Shown: piece after piece, positions 20,726 through 27,855 of the stretch | Layout: each line of letters begins with the position of its first letter | Numbering within the stretch: position 1 is the first letter of the stretch | NCBI GenBank assembly: GCA_025062045.1 | Contig: JANXAF010000005.1 | Span: forward strand, 1-64,000 | Source of the DNA: Thermodesulfobacteriota bacterium | GTDB taxonomy: Bacteria > Desulfobacterota > Syntrophorhabdia > Syntrophorhabdales > JANXAF01 | Direction of reading: 5' to 3' | Length of the DNA: 64,000 nt | Translations under genes and position numbers: made by a program | Notes under the pieces: model-generated | Database searches by the model: none | What the model was told of the DNA's origin: nothing | The model's input: the letters and a program-made list of their open reading frames with translations, nothing else

Positions 20726-22105
20726 ATGTTGAAAGAGTCGATAGTAGCTGAACTTAAAAGGATTTGCGGAGATGAAGACGTTTTAACAACTCCTGAAGCT
20801 TTGAAAGCATACTCTTACGATGGGACCACCAACTGGATCAAAGAACCGGAAGCGGTAGTTTTTCCTAAAACCGCATCAGAGATTTCAGAAGTTTTGAAAC
20901 TTGCGAACAGAGAAAAGATACCGGTTACTCCAAGGGGTGGCGGAACGAACGTTAGTGGTGGGTCTGTGCCATGGTTCGGTGGAATAGTGCTGTGCACCAC
21001 TAAGATGAATAAGATCAAAAAAATTGACAAGGAGAATTTGAGTTGTACTGTCGAATGCGGAGTTGTGCTACAAGATCTAAATACTGCACTTGCGAAGGAG
21101 GGGCTTTTTTTTCCTCCCGATCCTCAAAGTTTCCTCGGCGCTACAATCGGTGGGATTATTGCTGAAAACGCTGGTGGCCCAGCATGCGTAAAGTACGGGG
21201 TGACAAAACAGTACGTTCTGGGTCTTCAGGTTGTTTTGCCCACAGGAGAGATTGTGAATTTGGGGGGAAGAACCCTAAAAAATGTTGCTGGATACGATCT
21301 TATCCATCTTTTCATCAGTTCTGAAGGAACACTCGGTGTTATAAGTGAAGCGGAACTTAAGGTAAATCCTCTTCCGCCAGCGAGAAAAACGATTGTGGCT
21401 GTCTATGACAGCGTTGAAAAGGCTGGAGAGACGGTTTTTAGAGTCCTTGAAAATGGGGTAATTCCGGGAAAGATAGAGCTTTTGGACAACTGGGTTATAA
21501 ATCGGATAGAAGAGATGATGCCTATGGGTCTACCTAAAGAGGCGGATGCTATGCTTCTTTTTGAGTGTGACGGGATAGAAGAGGCAGTTCAAAAGGAGAC
21601 CGATAAGATCGTTGAAATAGCGAAAATATACGGAGCAAGGGATGTGCGGGTTGCAAAAGATATGGACGAGGCAAACAGATACTGGATGGCAAGAAGAGCA
21701 GGATTTGCGGCGGTGTTCGGAAAGGCAAAAACGGTTCTATCGGAGGATGTGACAGTCCCAAGAGGAATGATCCCTGCTCTTATAAGAAAGAGTAAGGAGA
21801 TAGCCAAAAAATATGGGCTAGAACTTGTAATCCTTGGACATGCAGGAGACGGAAATCTACATCCGTCCTTCCTGACAGACATAAACAACAAAGAACACTA
21901 CGAGAGGGCCCAAAAAGCTATGGAAGAAATCATTTACGCCGCTGTCGAACTTGGTGGGGTTCTTTCTGGTGAACATGGAATTGGCCTTGAGAAACAGAAA
22001 TTCTTCATGAGGGTTACAGATCCAGTCGCGATCGATCTCATGAAAAAGATCAAAGCTCTCTTTGATCCAAATAATATCATGAATCCCGGAAAGATATGGG
22101 AGTAA
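20726..22105 (+). CDS. GlcD-like FAD-linked 2-hydroxyacid dehydrogenase, copy 1
   Basis: This 459-residue flavoprotein belongs to the VAO/GlcD family that oxidises glycolate, D-lactate or related 2-hydroxy acids. FAD-binding landmarks are PRGGGTNVSGGSVP, GATIGGIIAENAGGP and the LKNVAGYDL segment. The C-terminal FAD-oxidase domain ends HAGDGNLHPS ... SGEHGIGLEK ... DPNNIMNPGK. It is followed at once by an iron-sulfur CCG protein, the usual electron-acceptor partner. It starts at ATG 20726 downstream of a good promoter and palindrome. About half its residues look shared with the copy at 26470. Confidence 0.92.
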   Translation: MLKESIVAELKRICGDEDVLTTPEALKAYSYDGTTNWIKEPEAVVFPKTASEISEVLKLANREKIPVTPRGGGTNVSGGSVPWFGGIVLCTTKMNKIKKIDKENLSCTVECGVVLQDLNTALAKEGLFFPPDPQSFLGATIGGIIAENAGGPACVKYGVTKQYVLGLQVVLPTGEIVNLGGRTLKNVAGYDLIHLFISSEGTLGVISEAELKVNPLPPARKTIVAVYDSVEKAGETVFRVLENGVIPGKIELLDNWVINRIEEMMPMGLPKEADAMLLFECDGIEEAVQKETDKIVEIAKIYGARDVRVAKDMDEANRYWMARRAGFAAVFGKAKTVLSEDVTVPRGMIPALIRKSKEIAKKYGLELVILGHAGDGNLHPSFLTDINNKEHYERAQKAMEEIIYAAVELGGVLSGEHGIGLEKQKFFMRVTDPVAIDLMKKIKALFDPNNIMNPGKIWE

Positions 22106-22122
22106 AACTTGAGGGGGCCAAA

Positions 22123-23391
22123 GTGAACGAGAAGAAGGAACTAAAAAAGGTGGAACAGTACATCGAACAGTGCATGAAGTGCGGCTTTTGTACATATTTT
22201 TGTCCTGTCTATCAAGAAGAAAAAGTCGAGACATCAGTTGCAAGAGGCAAAAACTACCTAATCAAACTGGCGCTCCAGGGGCAACAGGAATTCACAGAGG
22301 AGATGGGAAAGATTGTTGGCAAATGCCTTCTCTGTAAAAGGTGCGTAGTGAACTGTCCAGCAAAAGCACAAATAGATAGGGTTGTTGTAGGCGCCCGTGC
22401 TCAGATGGTAAACGAGAAGGGCCTTGGGTTTATAAAGAATTTAGCGTTCAGAAAGATCATGTCTGACAGGAAAAGATTCACAAGGTACCTTAAACTTGCA
22501 AAAGCCTTTCAGTGGCTTTTACCAAAAACAGAGGGAAATATAAGACATCTTCCCGATTTTCTCAAGGCTCTTGGCGCAGGAAGAAACATACCGGAGCTTG
22601 CTAAAACTTTTCTTCGGGATATGGTAAAGCCAGTCTATGAGCCGCAAAGCAAAGATAAGCCTGTCATGAAGGTTGGATTCTTTATGGGATGTGCAACAGA
22701 CTTCATCTATCCTGAGATTGGGCTAAAACTCATAGACTTTCTAACAAAGAGGAACGTGGAGGTCGTAGTTCCTAAAGACCAGAACTGCTGTGGGGCTCCC
22801 ATATACTTCAGTGGGGACTTCTTAACGGGAAGACTGATCGCTGACATGAATGTGGAGGCTTTTAAAGAAGTAGATACTATAGTTACGGCCTGCGCAACGT
22901 GCAGTTCAACCTTAAAAGAATACGAAAAGTACCTTGCAGAAACCGAGGAACAAAAACAGAAGTACGCGAATTTTGGAAAGAAAATAAAGGACAGTCTTGA
23001 GTTCATAGTGAAGACACTGAAAGTGGATCCAAAGAACCTTAAAGTTAGAAAAGAATTTCATGGAAAGACCGTAACATGGCATGATCCATGCCATCTTGTA
23101 AGGTATCAGGACATAAAGGATGAGCCGAGATCTATCCTTAAGAATTTGGATGGCATAAAATACGTGGAAATGCCCAATGCTGATCTGTGCTGCGGCATGG
23201 GAGGATCTTTCAGCATATACCATTACGACCTAACAAAAAGGATAGCGAAAAAGAAGCTGGATGGGATAAAAGCAACCGGGGCAGATATAGTTGTGACGGC
23301 ATGCCCGGGTTGCATGATAAATCTCATAGATAACGTTTTGCAAAATAGAATGCCCCAAAGGGTTTACCATATCGTCGAACTCTTCGAGTAA
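22123..23391 (+). CDS. GlcF/heterodisulfide-reductase-like iron-sulfur protein (CCG domains)
   Basis: Two 4Fe-4S motifs (CMKCGFCTYFCP and CLLCKRCVVNCP) are followed by two cysteine-rich CCG domains (CCGAPIYFSGD and CCGMGGSFSI). This is the layout of GlcF and LldE/HdrD-type electron carriers that accept electrons from the GlcD flavoprotein. I favour GTG 22123 because GAGGGGG lies five bases upstream. An ATG at 22096 overlapping the glcD stop is the alternative and would add nine residues. No membrane helix is seen, so the acceptor is soluble or an associated subunit. Confidence 0.9.
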   Translation: MNEKKELKKVEQYIEQCMKCGFCTYFCPVYQEEKVETSVARGKNYLIKLALQGQQEFTEEMGKIVGKCLLCKRCVVNCPAKAQIDRVVVGARAQMVNEKGLGFIKNLAFRKIMSDRKRFTRYLKLAKAFQWLLPKTEGNIRHLPDFLKALGAGRNIPELAKTFLRDMVKPVYEPQSKDKPVMKVGFFMGCATDFIYPEIGLKLIDFLTKRNVEVVVPKDQNCCGAPIYFSGDFLTGRLIADMNVEAFKEVDTIVTACATCSSTLKEYEKYLAETEEQKQKYANFGKKIKDSLEFIVKTLKVDPKNLKVRKEFHGKTVTWHDPCHLVRYQDIKDEPRSILKNLDGIKYVEMPNADLCCGMGGSFSIYHYDLTKRIAKKKLDGIKATGADIVVTACPGCMINLIDNVLQNRMPQRVYHIVELFE

Positions 23392-23422
23392 AAAATAAAT
23401 CAAGATAAAGGAGGGAGACCTT

Positions 23423-25027
23423 ATGAAACACGGCGTATGGCTTACGGCAAAGGATGTCTTAAGGGTCAACGCTTTTAAATGGCCAAACAAAATTGGCATT
23501 AAGGACTTAAACAAGCAGTACACGTTCAAAGAGTGGAATGAGAGAGCCTGCAGGCTCGCCAACGCTTTAGCCAATCTAGGAATGAAAAAAGGAGATAGAT
23601 TCTGCGTTTTGTCTTACAACTGCGTGGAATGGCTCGAATTCTATGCCGCTGCTGCAAAGGGTGGGTTCATATGCGTACCCATAATGTTTAGACTTGCGCC
23701 GCCTGAAATGGAATACATAATTAACCACGCGGAGGCAAAAGTTTTTATAGTCCAGGGCGGAAAGGACCAAAAAGGAAATGAACTTCCCTGGATAAAGCAG
23801 GTCAACAACATGAAGAAAAACTTACCTACTGTAGAACACTACATATCCTTTGCAGTGGACAGTCCGTACTATGATGGATACATAAATTACGAGGATATGC
23901 TAAAAGAAGCAAGTCCGGAAGAGCCGGAAGTTAGAGTCGATGCAGATGACATATGGGTCATAATGTATACCGGTGGAACTACAGGCCTTCCAAAAGGTGT
24001 TATGAAAAGCCACGGGAACCTCATAGCACAGTATTTTATAATGCTTTATGATCACGAGTTCGAACACGACGACATAGTACTTTTAGTTATGCCACTTTGC
24101 CACGTGAACTCACTCTTTTATTCCTTTGTCTTTACATGGATCGGTGCCACTGTAATGGCTTACAACATGGTCAGTTTCGATCCAGAAGATCTTCTTAAAA
24201 CCTTCGCCGAACATAAGATTACTTTTACATCCCTCGTTCCGACACATTACATAATGATGCTCGCACTTCCAGATGAGGTTAAGAAGAAATACGATCTCTC
24301 CTCTGTCAAAAAACTCCTTATATCGTCTGCCCCTGCAAGAAGGGATACAAAGCTTGGAATCATGAAGATGTTCCCCAATGCAAGACTCTGGGAGGCATAT
24401 GGATCAACGGAGGCAGGAATAGTCACAATACTTAAACCGGAGGAACAGCTCTCCAAACTTGGATCTATAGGCCGCGAAGTTATAGGCTCGGATATAATTA
24501 GGCTTTACGACGAAAACGGAAACATAATCACTGAACCGAACGTTGTGGGAGAACTTTACTCCAGAAGCCCCATGGTCTTCGAAGGGTACTGGAAGGATCC
24601 TGAAAAGACGAAAGCTGCGATGAAAGGCGAGTATTTTAGCGCGGGAGACATGGCCTATAGGGATCCTGACGGGTACTATGTCCTCGTTGACAGGAAAGCC
24701 AATATGATCATAACTGGTGGTGAGAATGTCTATCCCTCTGAGGTTGAGAACGTTATCGGAGCTCATCCTAAGGTAAAGGATGTGGCGGTAATTGGTGTTC
24801 CACATGAGAAATGGGGTGAGGCCGTAACTGCTGTAATCGTGCTCCACGAGGGGCAGACTGCAACCCCTGAAGAGATTATCGAGTTCTGTAGGGGTAAGAT
24901 AGCAGGGTACAAGATACCTAAAAACGTGTACTTTATAAAGGACGAAGAGATGCCCCGTAGTGGAGCCGGAAAGATACTTCACAGGGTTCTAAGAGAAAGG
25001 TACGGAAAGTGGAGTGACGTAAGGTAA
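23423..25027 (+). CDS. AMP-forming acyl-CoA ligase, FadD-like
   Basis: This 534-residue ANL-superfamily enzyme makes acyl-CoA from a carboxylic acid, ATP and CoA. It has the P-loop YTGGTTGLPKG (about residue 180), YGSTEAG, the hinge region VDRKANMIITGGENVYPSE and the C-terminal lysine in GAGKILHR. It starts at ATG 23423 with a GGAGGG ribosome binding site. It is the third gene of the glcD transcript and is followed by a strong terminator. The substrate is not identified. Confidence 0.92.
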   Translation: MKHGVWLTAKDVLRVNAFKWPNKIGIKDLNKQYTFKEWNERACRLANALANLGMKKGDRFCVLSYNCVEWLEFYAAAAKGGFICVPIMFRLAPPEMEYIINHAEAKVFIVQGGKDQKGNELPWIKQVNNMKKNLPTVEHYISFAVDSPYYDGYINYEDMLKEASPEEPEVRVDADDIWVIMYTGGTTGLPKGVMKSHGNLIAQYFIMLYDHEFEHDDIVLLVMPLCHVNSLFYSFVFTWIGATVMAYNMVSFDPEDLLKTFAEHKITFTSLVPTHYIMMLALPDEVKKKYDLSSVKKLLISSAPARRDTKLGIMKMFPNARLWEAYGSTEAGIVTILKPEEQLSKLGSIGREVIGSDIIRLYDENGNIITEPNVVGELYSRSPMVFEGYWKDPEKTKAAMKGEYFSAGDMAYRDPDGYYVLVDRKANMIITGGENVYPSEVENVIGAHPKVKDVAVIGVPHEKWGEAVTAVIVLHEGQTATPEEIIEFCRGKIAGYKIPKNVYFIKDEEMPRSGAGKILHRVLRERYGKWSDVR

Positions 25028-25038
25028 GTGTTTTCGTA

Positions 25039-25062
25039 GAGGCGGGCTTTGCCCGCCTTTTT
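25039..25062 (+). terminator. Rho-independent terminator after the acyl-CoA ligase
   Basis: An eight-base GC-rich stem AGGCGGGC/GCCCGCCT with a TTT loop is followed directly by a run of Ts. It closes the glcD-glcF-ligase transcript. Confidence 0.93.
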
Positions 25063-25081
25063 TAATTTGTTAAAAATTTCC

Positions 25082-25110
25082 TTGAAGTGTCCTTCCTTTT
25101 TCTATATCAT
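25082..25110 (+). promoter_or_regulatory. Candidate promoter for the DUF3553-like/selD unit
   Basis: TTGAAG (25082-25087) and TATCAT (25105-25110) are separated by 17 bases. Transcription would begin near the ATG at 25116, giving a leaderless message. The boxes are only moderate matches. Confidence 0.4.
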
Positions 25111-25115
25111 TAGTT

Positions 25116-25415
25116 ATGGCCAATGATTACGTCCTTTATCTTCAGGTCGGAGACAGAGTTTATCACAAAAAGTACAGAAGATGGGGAATAGGTGTCGTAA
25201 TTGAGGAGAGAAGATCAGAGCTTCCAGGTGGATTTTGCTATGTGAGGGTCGACTTTCAGGACGGTAAAGTAAGGATCTTCGATAACAACTTTAATAGTCA
25301 CAACTGTTGTTACTATTCAGGGATCGAAAAGATCGAGTTTGACGAGGATTGTCCCCCAAAAAGAGTGAGGGGAAAGAAGAACGAAAAAAAATCGATTCCT
25401 AAGCTCAAAAAGTAA
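25116..25415 (+). CDS. Small DUF3553-like protein upstream of selD
   Basis: A 99-residue protein whose first 60 residues (VGDRVYHKKYRRWGIGVVIEE...VRVDFQDGKVRIF) resemble the short beta-barrel DUF3553 family. A lysine-rich tail follows, and CC at about residues 66-67 is unusual. Function is unknown; the fold suggests nucleic-acid or protein binding. The stop is seven bases before the selD ATG, so the two are surely co-transcribed. The ATG has no clear ribosome binding site. Confidence 0.75.
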   Translation: MANDYVLYLQVGDRVYHKKYRRWGIGVVIEERRSELPGGFCYVRVDFQDGKVRIFDNNFNSHNCCYYSGIEKIEFDEDCPPKRVRGKKNEKKSIPKLKK

Positions 25416-25422
25416 ACAAAAA

Positions 25423-26451
25423 ATGGAACGGATTGAGCTCGCAAAGAGTGTAAGGGGGGCCGGCTGAGCCTCAAAAATAGGTCCGGGAGACCTAAATAAC
25501 ATTCTCTGCGGCATCGAAATGCCAAAAGACGATAATGTGATTGTCGGTATTGAAGGATTTGATGATGCCGGTGTTTACAAACTCGACGAAAACACTTTTA
25601 TCGTTCAAACGATCGACTTTTTTACACCTCTTGTGAATGATCCATATTGGTTCGGTAAGATTGCAGCAGCGAATTCCATGAGCGACGTTTACGCCATGGG
25701 TGGAGTTCCAAAAACGGCATTGAACGTGGTTTGTTATTCTACGAAAAAGTTTGGAACTGATATCTTAAAAGAGATACTGAAAGGCGGGATCGAAAAGATA
25801 AAAGAAGCCGGGGCGGTGCTTATAGGTGGTCACAGCGTTGATGATGAGGAGATAAAATACGGATTGGCTGTAACAGGTGTCATAAACCCAGAAAGGATTT
25901 TGAGAAACGATACGGCTTTTTTAGGAGATTTGCTCATCCTTACAAAACCACTTGGAACCGGAATCCTCACAACGGGAATAAAGGCCGACTTATTAAAAGA
26001 GGCGGACGCTCTTTACGTAGCCCAAATAATGGCAGAACTTAACAACAAGGCTTCAGAGCTTATGTTGTCGGTCAACACACATGCTGCAACTGATGTCACC
26101 GGCTTTGGACTGATAGGGCATCTAAAGGAGATGATAAAGGATCGGATAGGTGTCGATCTGTACATTAACGAGATACCGATTATCGAAGGCACACTGGAGC
26201 TTGCAAAAAAAGGTTTCATCCCAGGAGGCCTTTACAGAAATAAAGAGTATTTTCAAAAGTACGTTATGAATTTACGCGAGGGACCTATATACGACGTCAT
26301 ATTCGATCCTCAAACTTCAGGCGGGCTTCTTTTTGCTGTACCAGAGGAGGAAATCGGAAGATTAAGCGAAAATGCTCAACGGCTTGGCGTAAAGTTTTGG
26401 ATCATAGGGAAGTTTACAGATAAAAACTTAGGACAGATAGCCCTCCTCTAG
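25423..26451 (+). CDS. selD: Selenide, water dikinase SelD (selenoprotein, in-frame UGA at codon 15)
   Basis: SelD makes selenophosphate from selenide and ATP for selenocysteine, selenouridine and labile-selenium cofactors. Frame reading from ATG 25423 reaches TGA at 25465-25467, in a context (GAG-U-ASK-IGPGDL) that matches the catalytic site of SelD. U15 corresponds to Cys/Sec17 of E. coli and K18 to the essential Lys20. The frame continues to TAG 26451 for 342 residues, the normal family length. A start at ATG 25519 would give 310 residues and delete the active site. Later motifs are TIDFFTPLVNDPYWFGKIAA, the metal/ATP-binding segment, and GGHSVDDEE and TDVTGFGLIGHL. A hairpin follows the UGA. 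Confidence 0.93.
25465..25494 (+). promoter_or_regulatory. UGA Sec codon and bacterial SECIS-like hairpin in selD
   Basis: The UGA is at 25465-25467. Eleven bases later a perfect six-base stem TAGGTC/GACCTA (25478-25483 and 25489-25494) closes a five-base loop CGGGA. The loop begins 17 bases after the UGA and has a G near its tip, both as expected for a SelB-bound bacterial SECIS element. The structure is predicted by eye only. Confidence 0.8.
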
Positions 26452-26469
26452 GTCTTTTTAGGACCGAAA

Positions 26470-27855
26470 ATGGAAAGGCACTTGATCGAGAAGATTGAAT
26501 TAGCAGTGGGAAAAGAAAACGTGCTTAGAACCGAGGAAGAAAGAAAGTGCTATTCGTTTGACGCGAGGGCCAGTGGCTGTGTGCCAGATCTTGTCGTACT
26601 GCCAACGAATGCAGAAGCTGTATCTTCTGTGCTCAAACTCGCGAACGAATACAAATTTCCAGTAATACCTAGGGGACAGGGTTCCGGTGTAACAGGCGGT
26701 GCCATCCCGGTTTCTGGTGGGGTTGTGATGGCTTTTACGAGAATGAGAAGGATAATCGAGATAGACAGAGACGATCTCATAGCAATCGTTGAGCCCGGGG
26801 TTATTACGTATGAGTTTCAAGAAGAGGTTAAAAAGTATGGTCTATTTTATCCTCCCGATCCTGCTTCCCATAAGTATTCAACCATAGGTGGAAATGTTGC
26901 CACATGTGCTGGTGGACCGAATTCACTGAAATACGGAGTAACGAGGGACTATATTTTGGGACTTGAGGTCGTTTTACCGACTGGTGAGATAATAAATACC
27001 GGTGTCAGAACTATGAAAGGGGTTGTCGGGTACGATCTTACACGCCTCTTTGTTGGTAGCGAAGGAACATTGGGGATCTTCACAAAGATAATACTGAAAC
27101 TGATCCCTTTACCAGAGGCAAAAGCGACAATTCTCGCTTTTTTTAAAGAGGTTGAGGAAGCTGCAAAATGTGTTTCGAGCATCATCGCAGCCCGTGTAGT
27201 TCCAGCGGTCGTGGAGTTTATGGATAAAGCTTCCGTCATCTGCAGCGAAAAGGCAAATCCAATAGGTGTTCCAGAGAACACAGGCGCGCTTCTTCTCATT
27301 GAAGTTGACGGGGATCCTCCCTCTGTGAAGTACCAGACGGAAAAGATTATACGTCTTATAAAAGAGTCGAACGCAAGCAGCTTCCGAGTAACGGACGACC
27401 CAAAGGAGGCTGATCATTTATGGCTTGCAAGGAGGACGCTTTCTCAGGCCACGTACAATTTAAACCCGGTAAAGATAGCAGAGGATGTAGTAGTACCTCG
27501 TTCTAAAATCCCTATCCTCATAAGGAAACTTGAAGAACTTGGCAAGAGATACCAAATTCCCATACTCAGTTTTGGACATGCTGGAGATGGAAACTTCCAT
27601 GTAAGCATCATGATAAGAGATGATCCGGAGGATTATAGAAAGGCAGAGGACGCAGTTAAGGAGATATTTAAGGAGACTTTGAGGCTAGGTGGAACGCTCT
27701 CTGGAGAACACGGGATAGGTGTTTTAAAATCGGAATACATAGACATGGAGCTTTCAAAGGAAGTCTTAGAGAAAATGGCAAAAATCAAAAAACTTTTCGA
27801 TCCAAATAACATTTTGAACCCGGGAAAGATGTTTCCGCCATACATGGCGATCTGA
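26470..27855 (+). CDS. GlcD-like FAD-linked 2-hydroxyacid dehydrogenase, copy 2
   Basis: A 461-residue paralogue of the flavoprotein at 20726, with the same family landmarks: PRGQGSGVTGGAIP, YSTIGGNVATCAGGP, MKGVVGYDLTRLF, FGHAGDGNFHVS and SGEHGIGVLK. It oxidises a 2-hydroxy acid in relatives. It starts at ATG 26470, 18 bases after selD, with no Fe-S partner of its own next to it. It may share the CCG protein at 22123 or use another acceptor. Confidence 0.92.
   Translation: MERHLIEKIELAVGKENVLRTEEERKCYSFDARASGCVPDLVVLPTNAEAVSSVLKLANEYKFPVIPRGQGSGVTGGAIPVSGGVVMAFTRMRRIIEIDRDDLIAIVEPGVITYEFQEEVKKYGLFYPPDPASHKYSTIGGNVATCAGGPNSLKYGVTRDYILGLEVVLPTGEIINTGVRTMKGVVGYDLTRLFVGSEGTLGIFTKIILKLIPLPEAKATILAFFKEVEEAAKCVSSIIAARVVPAVVEFMDKASVICSEKANPIGVPENTGALLLIEVDGDPPSVKYQTEKIIRLIKESNASSFRVTDDPKEADHLWLARRTLSQATYNLNPVKIAEDVVVPRSKIPILIRKLEELGKRYQIPILSFGHAGDGNFHVSIMIRDDPEDYRKAEDAVKEIFKETLRLGGTLSGEHGIGVLKSEYIDMELSKEVLEKMAKIKKLFDPNNILNPGKMFPPYMAI

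Follow-up and report, generated by a model that had tools for sequence, protein, structure and literature searches.

The window, a stretch of 64,000 nucleotides from a genome of the order Syntrophorhabdales, carries a selD gene on its forward strand. The gene and the two elements within it that concern us here are:

25423 to 26451, + strand: selD, selenide water dikinase (selenophosphate synthetase), 342 aa with a predicted Sec at codon 15; assigned from TIGR00476, the Aquifex SelD structure and Pfam
25465 to 25467, + strand: in-frame UGA, predicted to be read as Sec, at the catalytic Cys/Sec position with Lys18 three residues on; assigned from alignment and relatives
25478 to 25494, + strand: putative bacterial SECIS hairpin, stem UAGGUC/GACCUA, loop CGGGA; assigned from its fold, relatives, frozen synonymous sites and a compensatory change

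The selD frame opens at ATG 25423–25425 and closes at a TAG stop at 26449–26451, giving 342 residues plus the stop, with the TGA of codon 15 as its sole in-frame TGA. The initial annotation had the same coordinates, its 342 codons excluding the stop. At 364 bits against TIGR00476 (curated cut-off 125) the product belongs to the SelD family; it contains both the AIRS and AIRS_C domains of Pfam and matches the Aquifex SelD structures 2yye/2zod at E 5e-85, aligned over residues 3–336. In that alignment codon 15, in the context VRGAG-U-ASKIGPGDL, lines up with the active-site Cys in the GCAAK of Aquifex SelD, and Lys18 with the Aquifex Lys. This bears out the proposal that GAG-U-ASK is the SelD active site, and the Cys or Sec followed three residues later by Lys that characterizes the N-terminal loop of SelD is present as U15 and K18. 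It had also been foreseen that a gene caller treating UGA as a stop would begin at ATG 25519, and the standard ORF list does so, with a 310-aa ORF that loses the active site. The gene call is corrected here, as the UGA-as-stop version would drop the SelD active site from the predicted protein.

selD lies between two genes for GlcD-like FAD-linked oxidases (20726–22105 and 26470–27855; region 20726–27855), the first of them followed by genes for an LdhH/GlcF-like Fe-S protein (22096–23391) and an acyl-CoA ligase (23423–25027). A 99-aa ORF just upstream of selD (25116–25415) has no Pfam or NCBIfam match, and an Rfam search of the window from 23 to 30 kb returned chance matches only, all below cut-off. 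We also considered a general reassignment of TGA and rejected it, because TGA is the commonest stop among the 62 long ORFs of the window (25 TGA, 20 TAA, 17 TAG).

The genome, an assembly of 29 contigs totalling 1.76 Mb and 97% complete, encodes the Sec pathway. The initial annotation had made its reading of UGA as Sec depend on selB and tRNA-Sec, and a search for selA, selB and selC found selA, selB and tRNA-Sec all present. Contig C4 carries the tRNA-Sec, which has a UCA anticodon and scores over the Rfam cut-off (70.5 bits), and selA (contig C11, 580 bits) and selB (contig C2, 381 bits) are likewise over their cut-offs; SelB carries at its C-terminus the SelB-wing_2 and wing_3 domains, the SECIS-binding winged-helix domains. 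Together with selD, the genome has all four genes of the pathway. On contig C6 an apparent further selB was taken, from its sequence and its position at the contig end, to be an EF-Tu gene broken there. A second or Cys-type SelD was sought in the genome and not found, other AIRS-family matches lying far below the SelD cut-off, and a genome search for ybbB (selenouridine use) gave no match. Sec is therefore probably the only use of selenophosphate in this genome, given a single SelD over the cut-off and no match to ybbB.

Family searches added three further genes with in-frame TGA at known Sec positions: formate dehydrogenase alpha (contig C3:152094–154097), with one TGA in the context DHCARL-U-HSP, and two FlpD/MvhD genes (contigs C1:306957–307328 and C2:59256–59624), in the context CFW-U-GYG or CHW-U-GYG. 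With selD this makes at least four genes in which UGA appears to be decoded as Sec in this small genome of the Syntrophorhabdales order.

Downstream of the selD UGA, TAGGTC (25478–25483) pairs with GACCTA (25489–25494) around the loop CGGGA (25484–25488). The perfect six-base stem, the G-containing five-base loop and the start at the 11th base after UGA are all present as first described; the G is at loop position 2, and the loop lies 16 nt from UGA. A published bacterial SECIS model (PMC13188914) specifies a stem of 4–16 bp, a loop of 3–9 nt, a UGA-to-loop distance of 16–37 nt, a G in the first two loop bases and an energy of at most −7.5 kcal/mol. The selD hairpin has this geometry in stem, loop, loop G and UGA spacing. 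Its energy depends on the stretch folded, being −6.9 kcal/mol for the hairpin alone, just short of the limit, and −9.5 for 25465–25515; of the fold suggested earlier, then, the geometry holds while the energy straddles the limit. Relative to shuffled sequences the fold energy is not unusual (z −0.7 to −0.9), and it was not used as evidence. The window has 1924 TGA triplets; Watson-Crick stems of at least 6 bp in bacterial SECIS geometry follow 2.4% of them, and the exact spacing and loop seen in selD follow 2 of the 1924. Given this frequency of such stems and an energy that is ordinary relative to shuffles, the single hairpin taken by itself is weak evidence for a SECIS.

A selD match is present in 190 of 198 related genomes, and among the full-length matches listed most have exactly one TGA inside. 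We compared 72 distinct selD genes, taken from the related genomes and from a named genome collection (Deltaproteobacteria, Syntrophorhabdus, Syntrophales). Aligning codon 15 with Cys- and Sec-containing SelD, as had been suggested, gives TGA in 64 of 64 Sec relatives and TGC or TGT in the 8 Cys paralogues. The reading frame is conserved on either side of UGA throughout the phylum, and the UGA stands at a redox Cys/Sec position, as expected of a selenoprotein gene. The inner 5-bp stem is complete in 52 of the 64 Sec genes versus one of the eight Cys genes (Fisher p 0.0002, phylogeny not corrected); if each protein were recoded at random according to the codon usage of its own gene, 5.4 complete inner stems in 64 would be expected.

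The 35 Sec genes of the order have 88 conserved columns with fourfold degeneracy. Of these, the third bases of Gly20 (T in 34 of 35) and Pro21 (G in 33 of 35) vary least, at 0.19 and 0.32 bits compared to a mean of 1.71 over the 88 columns; these two most frozen sites fall in the stem and on the loop guanine. Among the Asp and the Ile columns of the gene, those of Asp23 (C in 34/35) and Ile19 (A in 34/34) are the most frozen, whereas Gly22 varies freely at its third base (rank 26 of 88), which sits unpaired in the loop at its 3′ end. Hence, the constraint tracks the hairpin, not the protein. Pair 15–27 (counted from zero at the U of UGA) has changed from G-C to A-T in four genes, each of a different family, and T on its 3′ side is never seen without A on its 5′ side (p 5.5e-5, kinship not corrected).

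Twelve of the 64 Sec genes lack a full inner stem in the consensus register, and most of these can form another hairpin nearby. In the Sec-SelD genes of L104, L074, L077, L101 and L103 the consensus stem is broken and a hairpin in a shifted register is possible within the first 45 bases past UGA; that of L074 is CTCCAGG-GGA-CCTGGAG, with its loop 20 nt after UGA. This looks as though the SECIS had shifted by some bases from one lineage to another. We regard the comparison of relatives as decisive in indicating that the selD hairpin is functional and under selection in Sec genes and not in their Cys homologues. Sec and Cys paralogues occur within one order, and the contrast between them cleanly demonstrates a SECIS located within coding sequence.

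The gene at 25423–26451 is therefore almost certainly selD encoding a selenoprotein, with UGA predicted to be decoded as Sec via SECIS and SelB. The initial proposal to this effect is supported by the Sec machinery of the genome, by the TGA of the relatives and by selection on the hairpin at synonymous sites in Sec genes only. The hairpin, with its apical loop 16 nt past UGA, would be bound by SelB-GTP with Sec-tRNA-Sec, and Sec would be delivered at codon 15 in place of termination. The flexible N-terminal loop of SelD would carry Sec15 and Lys18, and the enzyme would make selenophosphate from selenide and ATP, to be used by SelA for further Sec-tRNA-Sec. Since the genome search yielded no Cys-SelD, the enzyme would seem to help make its own 21st amino acid. 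A more speculative extension, which we think improbable, is that the Sec pathway depends on its own product, with a start-up route expected, either low-level insertion of Cys or another residue at codon 15 or carry-over of the enzyme into daughter cells; the pathway may then be bistable at low selenium, a dependence that relatives possessing an extra Cys-SelD would escape. The start-up puzzle of a Sec-only SelD pathway is not special to this genome.

Start-up also bears on a very unlikely reading in which a near-cognate tRNA places another amino acid (Cys, Trp or Arg) at UGA, at least under scarce selenium, giving the first active SelD. The only SelD found needs Sec or Cys for activity, so a start-up route is needed, and SelD carrying Cys is active (PMC4561486 and references therein). 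However, nothing in the sequence points to such misreading, the conserved SECIS and SelB indicate Sec as the normal reading, and the idea adds to the main explanation rather than replacing it. We give even less weight to UGA being a true stop, with a shortened SelD-like protein of 310 aa, without the active-site loop, made from ATG 25519: that ORF exists, but the residues flanking UGA are conserved in frame across the phylum, synonymous positions in the hairpin are frozen only among Sec genes, and no further SelD was found in the genome to supply its Sec pathway. That TGC or TGT was misread as TGA in sequencing or assembly, which the initial annotation had named as a possible undoing of its claim, has a negligible chance. 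Cys paralogues with these codons do occur in the same order, but independent assemblies refute the error, genomes of the same family and order sharing the TGA codon and hairpin and nearly all related genomes having the same TGA at the same codon.

The Cys paralogues of the order appear to have arisen within the Sec tree and lost the hairpin. In a maximum-likelihood tree of the 72 proteins, rooted at the midpoint only, at least four changes are required to account for the Cys label, and the Cys-SelD genes are nested inside Sec groups. This nesting agrees with the published view of a change from Sec to Cys in SelD, one of two families where Sec has mostly changed to Cys (PMC1794560). Several genomes of the order carry both forms. 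In several, the extra Cys-SelD is close behind an HdrA-like gene (L063:1483–6564 with L115:10513–11601; L064:5565–10682; L065:5641–10800; L062:5964–11000). An MvhD/FlpD gene with Cys (NWCCYGG) stands between the two in L063 and L065, placing the Cys forms of two selenoproteins side by side, where the window genome has Sec (W-U-GYG) in MvhD/FlpD; in L063/L115, a selB is found upstream.

Sec-containing SelD is among the most widespread bacterial selenoproteins and is listed for many Deltaproteobacteria, including Syntrophobacter, Syntrophus, Geobacter and Desulfovibrio (PMC1794560, Table 3); Sec occurs in 19% of the SelD genes of a prokaryotic reference set (PMC4561486). The initial remark that some SelD proteins carry Sec was right, and refers to a well-documented family (PMC1794560, PMC4561486). 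The closest solved structure to the window SelD is that of Aquifex aeolicus SelD (2yye/2zod), which has the active site in register, although the solved chain shows Cys where the window SelD has its predicted Sec. Cys-SelD of the E. coli type and the Syntrophorhabdales Cys paralogues share the fold, the site residues and the Lys at +3 with the window SelD, but have TGC or TGT instead of its TGA, and their hairpin is unmaintained (1/8). With the Deltaproteobacterial Sec-SelD genes (PMC1794560) the window gene shares a predicted N-terminal catalytic Sec, a SECIS that follows it immediately within the coding sequence, a genome with the full Sec machinery and a Deltaproteobacterial lineage. There is no substantive difference; the window contributes a new sequence in a lineage of the Syntrophorhabdales, and its Sec-SelD is ordinary, one more member of a published family, typical of the phylum and common to most of its relatives.
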